Position numbers and translations under genes: made by a program
DNA from: Roseobacter sp. HKCCD6576-2
Lineage (GTDB): Bacteria; Pseudomonadota; Alphaproteobacteria; Rhodobacterales; Rhodobacteraceae
Length of the DNA: 64,000 nt
Direction: 5' to 3'
NCBI RefSeq assembly: GCF_013179285.1
Contig: NZ_WVNW01000004.1
Coordinates: forward strand, 62,001-126,000
Shown: one piece after another, positions 29,556 through 30,546 of the stretch
Layout: every line of letters starts with the position of its first letter
How positions within the stretch are numbered: the stretch's first letter is position 1
Notes under the pieces: model-generated
Told to the model about the DNA's origin: nothing
The model's input: the letters and a program-made list of their open reading frames with translations, nothing else
Database searches by the model: none

Positions 29556-29584
29556 TCCATACGGGATCCATACCAAATCCATAC
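29556..29584. repeat. Three phased TCCATAC repeats upstream of arfB
   Basis: TCCATAC occurs at 29556, 29567 and 29578 with an exact 11-bp period, about one helical turn. It lies 30-58 bp before the arfB start, a position suited to a regulator-binding site or core promoter. Confidence 0.6.
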
Positions 29585-29600
29585 GGCAATTTCGGCACCA

Positions 29601-29631
29601 AAAAGGGCCGCACCAATGGCACGACCCTTTT
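29601..29631 (-). terminator. Strong intrinsic terminator between leader ORF and arfB
   Basis: Read leftward, AAAAGGGTCGTGCC and GGTGCGGCCCTTTT pair along 14 positions (three G-U) around a 3-nt loop, and the transcript continues TTTTTGG. It is nearly symmetric, so it may also stop rightward transcription. Confidence 0.8.
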
Positions 29632-29702
29632 CGAGAAATCAGGAGGTGGGCGCGGTCAGGACCGCTGGTCCACCTGGGATGGGGTTCGCCCCCTAGGGTT
29701 GC

Positions 29703-29759
29703 CTAGCGGCGATCCTCCCAAGCTGTCCCGACGCCATTCTCCAATACCTCTCTAGACAC
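29703..29759 (-). CDS. 18-residue leader-type ORF upstream of arfB
   Basis: A GTG start, 7 nt after AGGAGG, opens an ORF encoding MSREVLENGVGTAWEDRR and ending in TAG. The ribosome-binding site is the strongest in the window. Composition is charged and soluble, with no run of a single amino acid that would point to a classical attenuator. It could be a real microprotein or simply a ribosome-loading device for the leader RNA. Confidence 0.5.
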   Translation of the reverse strand: MSREVLENGVGTAWEDRR

Positions 29760-29829
29760 TGGATCACCTCCTTTCATTTGGTTGCTGTTGAGGTGAGCCT
29801 GCCACAGATTTTGTGTTTGTCAAAAGAAA

Positions 29830-30453
29830 TTATGCGACATGTGCCAATAATCGGCGGGTGAGGATGCGGAACGGAATCAGCGCCAGGATCGCCAGCGACA
29901 GTTTCACCAGCCAATCCGCGAAGGCCAGCGAGACCCAAAGCGGCGCCACCGGCCCGGCTCCAAGCATCGGCAACATCTCTCCGGCCCAGGACACGTCATT
30001 GCCCGGCTCAAGGAAGGTCAGACTGGCCGAGAAGGCGATGGTGAAGAAGAGCGCCGTATCCACCGAAGACCCAATGATCGTTGAGAAAACCGGCGCTTTC
30101 CACCAAACGCCGTCGCGCATCCGGTCAAAGATGGCGACGTCCAAAAGCTGCGCCGTCAGGAAGGCCAGACCGGAGCCCATCGCGATGCGGAGCGTGACCA
30201 GCGGGCCGAACTCGCCCATGATCTGCGTTCCAATCAGCGAGCAAGCAACGCCGACCAAAAACCCAACGAAAACAACGCGCCGGGCGGCGGCCACGCCATA
30301 GACGCGGTTCATGACATCGGTGACCAGGAAGGCCAGCGGATAGGTAAACGCCCCCCAGGTCAGCCATTGGCCGAAAAGGAATTGGACGAGGATGTTGGAG
30401 GCGACGACAATCGACGCCATGGCCAAAATGCCAGGCAAATACGTGCGGTTCAT
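29830..30453 (-). CDS. VUT-family (YhhQ-type) queuosine precursor transporter
   Basis: A 207-residue membrane protein with about six helices. It resembles the YhhQ/VUT family that imports preQ0/preQ1 for queuosine tRNA modification. Characteristic parts are ASNILVQFLFG, TYPLAFLVTDVMNRVYG, IGSSVDTALFFTIAFS and ALIPFRIL. The ATG at 30453 was chosen because MNRTYLPG leads straight into helix 1. No preQ1 riboswitch is evident upstream. The leader-type RNA begins just after its stop. Confidence 0.87.
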   Translation of the reverse strand: MNRTYLPGILAMASIVVASNILVQFLFGQWLTWGAFTYPLAFLVTDVMNRVYGVAAARRVVFVGFLVGVACSLIGTQIMGEFGPLVTLRIAMGSGLAFLTAQLLDVAIFDRMRDGVWWKAPVFSTIIGSSVDTALFFTIAFSASLTFLEPGNDVSWAGEMLPMLGAGPVAPLWVSLAFADWLVKLSLAILALIPFRILTRRLLAHVA

Positions 30454-30546
30454 GTTGTTTTCCGTTTTGACAAGGTGGTCGGAGACTTGGCCCATAATCG
30501 GGCGATGGCGCGCAATACGCCCCTTCCGCCCGTCTGACAAGGGTCT

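Follow-up and report, generated by a model that had tools for sequence, protein, structure and literature searches.

The locus described here lies in the window, that is, the whole stretch of 64,000 nucleotides of Roseobacter sp. HKCCD6576-2 that was analysed, where a putative small RNA unit of roughly 190 nt was located on the minus strand, at about 29789-29601, between a yhhQ-type gene and arfB (Table 1). A first-pass annotation had read in this place a Shine-Dalgarno sequence (SD), an 18-codon ORF, a nested fold and a 14-position terminator, and every element that it named was located on the minus strand as described. A heptamer, GTATGGA, was also noticed three times on the minus strand at 29556-29584, with an exact period of 11 bp; these repeats separate the terminator from arfB and may be an operator of arfB.

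Table 1. Features of the small RNA gene and its neighbours, in positions of the window
Feature	Position	Strand	Basis or remark
Promoter-like TTGACA-16-CAGGCT	29796..29823	-	putative transcription start near 29789
Shine-Dalgarno GAAAGGAGGTGATCCAG	29759..29775	-	17-nt exact complement of the 16S rRNA 3' tail
18-codon ORF VSREVLENGVGTAWEDRR	29703..29759	-	GTG start, TAG stop
Start-codon hairpin UCCAGUGUCU-AGAG-AGGUAUUGGA	29740..29763	-	minimum free energy (MFE) fold
Helix H2, ORF codons 12-15 with post-ORF segment, stop codon enclosed	29670..29725	-	best-helix score, 62 loci
Internal anti-Shine-Dalgarno CACCTCCT	29641..29648	-	fold and motif conservation
Intrinsic terminator (14-bp stem, ATT loop, T run)	29601..29631	-	terminator-hairpin search
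arfB, RF-1 domain, 139 aa	29107..29526	-	Pfam PF00472, 1.3e-20; downstream neighbour, outside the RNA gene
yhhQ-type transporter (Vut_1)	29830..30480	-	Pfam PF02592, 4.7e-28; upstream neighbour

The pairing of the RNA with 17 nt of the 16S rRNA tail, which had been proposed at first pass, proved to be exact against the 16S rRNA of the source genome itself, whose tail (contig C1) reads CGGCTGGATCACCTCCTTTCTAAGG, the 16S end written out being GGCTGGATCACCTCCTTTCTAAGG. In the assembly of 4.41 Mb, CTGGATCACCTCCTTTC was found twice, at the 16S end and, on the opposite strand, in the small RNA, while AAGGAGGTGAT has seven sites in the genome, comprising the 16S antisense, the small RNA (17 nt) and five others that match over 11-15 nt. 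The explanation that a fragment of a 16S gene has strayed here on the plus strand was rejected because the promoter-like motif, the ORF, the fold and the terminator are all conserved on the minus strand. The second-longest complement of the 16S tail in the genome is 15 nt long and lies on contig C8, around position 849 of locus L185 (minus strand); it has no start codon at SD spacing, and an ORF starting MAQPKFDLKQHVTDIIIQEIEKGTPPWQ, which we take to resemble an ArdC-type antirestriction protein, begins about 130 nt downstream.

The distribution of the RNA was followed with several searches. A DNA search revealed relatives in 33 of 61 genomes, the weakest of which share no more than the SD block or the terminator. 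The exact pattern of SD plus start was detected in 29 of 289 genomes of the class, in exactly one copy each, with no occurrence of the reversed control pattern, and at the level of the phylum in 32 of 299 genomes, all 32 of them belonging to the own family or class. When named genomes were scanned, at least 118 stretches matched; among the 80 matches listed with titles, most were from Alphaproteobacteria of many orders, some were titled only Proteobacteria, Pseudomonadota or similar, and four were titled otherwise (Gemmatimonadetes, SAR92, Nitrospinota and Gammaproteobacteria). In the covariance search of relatives that had been suggested at first pass, a model built from 52 close loci detected the RNA, each time as a single copy, in 179 of the 199 family genomes; the 20 family genomes without a match to the model include one from the genus of the window. 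Among genomes of the class, 16 of 143 match the model, including the own genome and two others of the same family, and the remaining matches are weak. Predicted relatives of the RNA are recurrent across many alphaproteobacteria.

For comparative analysis, we considered loci L001-L177, of which 176 carry the relaxed SD pattern (L025 was dropped) and 167 are distinct, divided into 62 close loci, the window's own included, and 105 loci of other types. The close loci were sorted by DNA similarity of the ORF start and not by ORF length. Additionally, 60 further hits of the covariance model, the genomes of which may overlap those of the model's training records, were fetched, consisting of 48 divergent loci from the lower part of the listed family scores and 12 loci from elsewhere in the class. 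The 48 divergent loci, like those found with the Rfam model described below, were gathered without requiring an ORF. As many as 40 of the 48 still pair with the 16S tail at 16 or 17 of 17 positions, G-U pairs counted, and 37 retain the anti-SD motif. Among the 12 class loci outside the family, a start codon stands at the expected place in nine and is absent in one, and the SD was not found by our script in two.

With reference to known families, the RNA was compared with RF01867 (CC2171), which Rfam files as an sRNA gene and which reportedly originates from the Caulobacter sRNA CC2171 of Landt et al. 2008. The RF01867 model aligned with the window RNA over its full length (model positions 1-159) at 36.6 bits and an E-value of 2.9e-6, and the block GAAAGGAGGUGAUCCAGUGUCU is found in the Rfam consensus itself. 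The window RNA is also the best RF01867 match in its genome (E 6.8e-6, the next being 0.064), and at an E-value of 1 matches appear in 6 of 14 control genomes too. At an E-value of 0.001, RF01867 matched 63 of 278 genomes of the class, 10 of them over the curated cut-off, and among the 14 control genomes Caulobacter vibrioides only; 3 of 16 relatives scanned were over the cut-off. Since the match is significant and of full length at 36.6 bits, against a curated gathering score of 75 bits, we regard the window RNA, judging from the model comparison, as a homologue of CC2171 that falls short of the formal membership score and differs in its closing helix. The best 20 RF01867 loci each harbor a close SD, which is expected because the model itself contains it, and in 20/20 a short ORF stands right behind the SD; loci from other orders that score over the cut-off likewise combine an SD of this kind with a short ORF. 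The two RNAs differ in that the window RNA is closed by SD:anti-SD pairing, whereas CC2171 is closed by pairing of the early ORF with the pre-terminator segment, and in that the window RNA has a different peptide of 18 codons.

Other known systems share some of these properties. The extended SD of rpsU in Flavobacteriales is described, in the excerpts available of PMC9976891, as a special signal for ribosome recognition, but there it precedes the bS21 gene, whereas here it is part of an RNA that has a terminator of its own and an ORF of 18 codons. The leader-peptide attenuators of the Sinorhizobium peTrpL kind, according to the available part of PMC7298713, similarly comprise a short ORF followed by a terminator, with the peptide and the small RNA as possible products; in contrast, the window RNA has no conserved downstream gene, has a promoter-like motif of its own and has no run of codons for one amino acid. 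Two earlier-predicted Caulobacter ncRNAs are reported as translated in the portion of PMC4117421 at hand, so that translation of CC2171 in Caulobacter may perhaps already be on record there. The parts of the literature accessible to our search describe neither what CC2171 does nor the SD-ORF arrangement, and the arrangement is not stated in the excerpts of PMC11701678 (a table entry), PMC5596092 (one listed sRNA), PMC4117421, PMC4842269, PMC10117765, PMC3927594, PMC6943124, PMC12559287 and PMC5082802.

The ORF consists of exactly 18 codons in all 62 close loci, the window included, and its stop codons were TAG in 31, TGA in 20 and TAA in 11. Given the make-up of the alignment columns, the probability of encountering no TGG was 9e-9, and it was 3e-5 after thinning to 21 dissimilar loci. 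An 18-codon ORF was found in 35 of the 48 divergent family loci and was lacking in 13, and GTG or TTG stood at the expected place in 42. When substitutions were compared among similar close loci, in pairs that are not independent, the synonymous fraction of codons 2-12 amounted to 0.50 against an expected 0.30, with frames +1 and +2 below expectation (0.17 vs 0.24 and 0.13 vs 0.22), and that of codons 13-18 was 0.28 against 0.28, displaying no coding-type signal. The result was mixed over codons 2-18 as a whole, where frame 0 gave 0.38 against 0.29 and frame +1 was also in excess (0.35 vs 0.25), and the mean entropy was equal at codon positions 1, 2 and 3 (0.80, 0.83 and 0.80). On account of these equal entropies and of the excess in frame +1, it is codons 2-12 and the stop that carry the coding signal. 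A purely peptide-independent ORF, as considered from the equal entropies, was dropped since codons 2-12 are constrained, though the test is mixed over codons 2-18. In a second group of 45 loci, which start with GTG/ATG-TCT-CAT-TG, the fraction in codons 2-12 was 0.48 against 0.34, on few changes (19 synonymous, 21 not), with 0.24 vs 0.23 in frame +1 and 0.27 vs 0.39 in frame +2; codons 2-12 of this group thus appear to lean the same way as those of the close loci, on few changes. Comparison among loci supports selection on the ORF as an ORF, and its translation is predicted.

Other arrangements of the ORF were also noticed among the loci. Ten Bradyrhizobium-type loci (L085, L091, L095, L096, L109, L120, L122, L140, L158 and L159) harbor a 14-codon ORF ending in KRCHLAGIAR, the last eight codons of which are identical in DNA, and an anti-SD, TCACCTC, is found within the ORF itself. 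Behind the same SD, L104, L134, L146 and L042 exhibit an ORF of 57-59 codons that is signal-peptide-like, L104 and L134 being Azospirillum-titled. The ORF of L111 (a SAR92-titled record) and of L145 encodes GSRxAPFYx, and the corresponding codons of L145 form a GC hairpin followed by T, so that the RNA would end much earlier there than at other loci.

The predicted fold of the RNA, at -92.6 kcal/mol, is stronger than that of all 200 shuffled sequences, which average -70.0 kcal/mol (z -4.9), and it pairs the SD with CACCUCC on the 3' side. The suggestion at first pass that CACCTCCT can act as an alternative partner of the SD is supported by this pairing and by the motif C[AG][CT]CTCC, which occupies the corresponding position in 54 of the 62 close loci compared with 31 of 1031 control windows; as searched, the motif was absent there in the remaining 8. 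Conservation of pairs was examined in an alignment of 52 rows, from which 10 of the 62 loci were left out (four without the motif, three with a doubtful 3' end and three near-duplicates). The SD and the anti-SD pair in 99.4% of its cells, with changes that are one-sided and of wobble type only, and two-sided covariation is not to be expected here because the SD side never varies. The GUCGG:CCGAC helix pairs in 90.3% of cells and changes on both sides at three pairs, and in the window itself five of the seven pairs of that alignment are standard. The start-codon hairpin pairs in 98.7% of cells and is without support from covariation, since three of its six pairs are invariant and the other three vary on one side.

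Moreover, a best-helix test over the 62 close loci yielded 18.8 for helix H2, there between ORF codons 12-16 and a post-ORF segment, against at most 16.0 in 100 shuffles, and 18.5 for helix H3, which joins the stop region to the sequence that follows it, against at most 16.05 in 100 shuffles, while a control region scored 16.2 in the same test and did not rise above its shuffles (mean 16.7). The closing helix of the Rfam type, between the early ORF and the pre-terminator segment, was not supported in the 62 close loci, where it scored 12.2 and the shuffles averaged 12.4; in 97 other loci having the terminator, the same helix scored 14.9 against at most 13.1 in 200 shuffles. With RNAalifold on a MAFFT alignment, the fold was recovered in part.

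The promoter-like motif, which had not been named at first pass, was detected in 49 of the 62 close loci, at -48 to -52 from the SD except for one at -62, compared with 9 of 509 control windows, and in 28 of 104 other loci compared with 13 of 913 control windows. A terminator-like hairpin was found in 62/62 close and 97/105 other loci, and 69 of 308 control windows also score. A generic promoter and terminator scan reported neither at the RNA; both calls rest on comparison with relatives. For the 62 close loci, the most constant neighbour is yhhQ, directly upstream in 58, and not arfB. It was found at none of the 105 other loci, which makes the explanation that the RNA is part of the 3' end of the yhhQ mRNA unneeded, and co-transcription with yhhQ is possible. 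The 187 neighbour ORFs of the other loci fall into 139 clusters, and a Pfam scan of 10 of the neighbour proteins gave no theme. By eye, neighbours that recur in some genera, at L113, L141 and L154 and at L070, L072, L088 and L132, resemble release factor 3 and RNase R, both of which are linked to translation.

These surroundings bear on the coupling to arfB that was put forward at first pass, according to which the RNA would be a leader that attenuates arfB at the terminator depending on the occupancy of the ORF by ribosomes. Such a leader would agree with the position of the terminator between the ORF and arfB, and with arfB following on the same strand in 49 of the 62 close loci; but of the 62 loci, 4 have arfB displaced, 8 show no arfB in the flank that was fetched, and in 1 the flank ends short of it, and arfB is never downstream at the 105 other loci. 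The strand of the downstream gene at the latter is near random (47 plus, 46 minus and 12 not called, by a crude gene caller), the neighbours are scattered over the many clusters mentioned, and the MFE and centroid folds contain no helix competing with the terminator. The missing fixed downstream gene therefore disfavours a general leader role and makes a special arfB role unlikely, and the proposal was rejected on synteny; on the sequence comparisons, action as an arfB leader is not supported, and we hold it to be the most improbable of the readings weighed here. In two Hyphomonadaceae-titled loci of the other types (L089 and L138), arfB lies near the RNA, upstream and on the opposite strand. 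The alternative kept in reserve at first pass, an independent trans-acting RNA, stood as regards independence, given the promoter-like motif and terminator of its own, while action in trans is retained as a conditional element.

Three further readings concern the RNA by itself. It could be the plain mRNA of a functional microprotein of 18 residues, with a strong SD for output and a fold for stability, and we judge this unlikely, though worthy of consideration. The coding-type substitution pattern of codons 2-12 speaks for a microprotein, as do the residues of the 62 close loci, where E7 is invariant and L6, V10, G11 and T12, each the commonest residue at its position, recur in 59 or 60; against it, codons 13-18 show no constraint at the protein level and yet lie inside supported helices, and the other loci have peptides of differing sequence and size (99 of the 105 ORFs span 14-33 codons, most found with the start codon inside the search pattern) while the SD and the start persist. 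Over-long SDs can slow initiation, and the RNA might on that ground be a decoy whose SD, too tight for efficient initiation, lowers or buffers the free 30S subunits. The complement of 17 nt and the calculated SD:16S duplex of about -29 kcal/mol would suit a decoy, but a decoy needs neither a fixed ORF of 18 codons nor selection on its stop codon, and we find it improbable. It is very unlikely that the RNA is a non-coding trans-acting sRNA in which the ORF and the SD are mere by-products of pairing constraints: the filing of the related Rfam family as sRNA and the anti-SD loop motifs described for two Sinorhizobium sRNA families (in the available part of PMC3927594) are compatible with it, but the selection on the stop codon and the substitution pattern are not what it predicts, nor are the short ORFs behind the SD in all of the best 20 Rfam-model loci and the GTG or TTG starts of the divergent loci, as both sets were sought without requiring an ORF.

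We consider, with a probability of about one half, that the locus is an autonomous gene for a structured, translated and ribosome-gated RNA of roughly 190 nt, the appearance of which is closer to a regulatory RNA controlled by ribosomes than to a switch for arfB. In such a gene, the SD would be contested between the 30S subunit and the internal anti-SD. In the conserved fold, which comparison supports, the 3' anti-SD, the start-codon hairpin and the two helices formed by the second half of the ORF shut the RNA. Opening of the SD costs about 10 kcal/mol by calculation against a gain of about 29 kcal/mol from the duplex, and therefore the 30S subunit could beat the internal anti-SD. Docking and translation through codon 18 would then unfold the helices of codons 12-18 and free the 3' half, and the loading of ribosomes would set the fate or the trans activity of the RNA, perhaps together with that of the peptide. 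The fixed length of the ORF, the selection on its stop and the pairing of its last six codons fit a design in which the path of the ribosome may matter at least as much as its product; the peptide or the local codons 2-12 would matter too, because these codons are constrained. More specifically, this RNA class of alphaproteobacteria might be a sensor of ribosome availability, in which plentiful 30S subunits with a free tail displace the anti-SD, translate the ORF and expose the anti-SD segment on the 3' side to act in trans on other mRNAs, and scarcity leaves the RNA self-closed; we put this forward as a speculative and rather doubtful extension of the ribosome-gated reading.

In summary, a kind of RNA that is filed in Rfam as an sRNA recurs in another family, in 179 of its 199 genomes, as a form with a score under the curated cut-off; an exact complement of the 16S tail and an ORF of fixed length make up its core. 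This suggests that work on the CC2171-type sRNAs should treat them as translated RNAs, and it offers a clear and cheap test of whether bacteria read the availability of ribosomes through a dedicated RNA.
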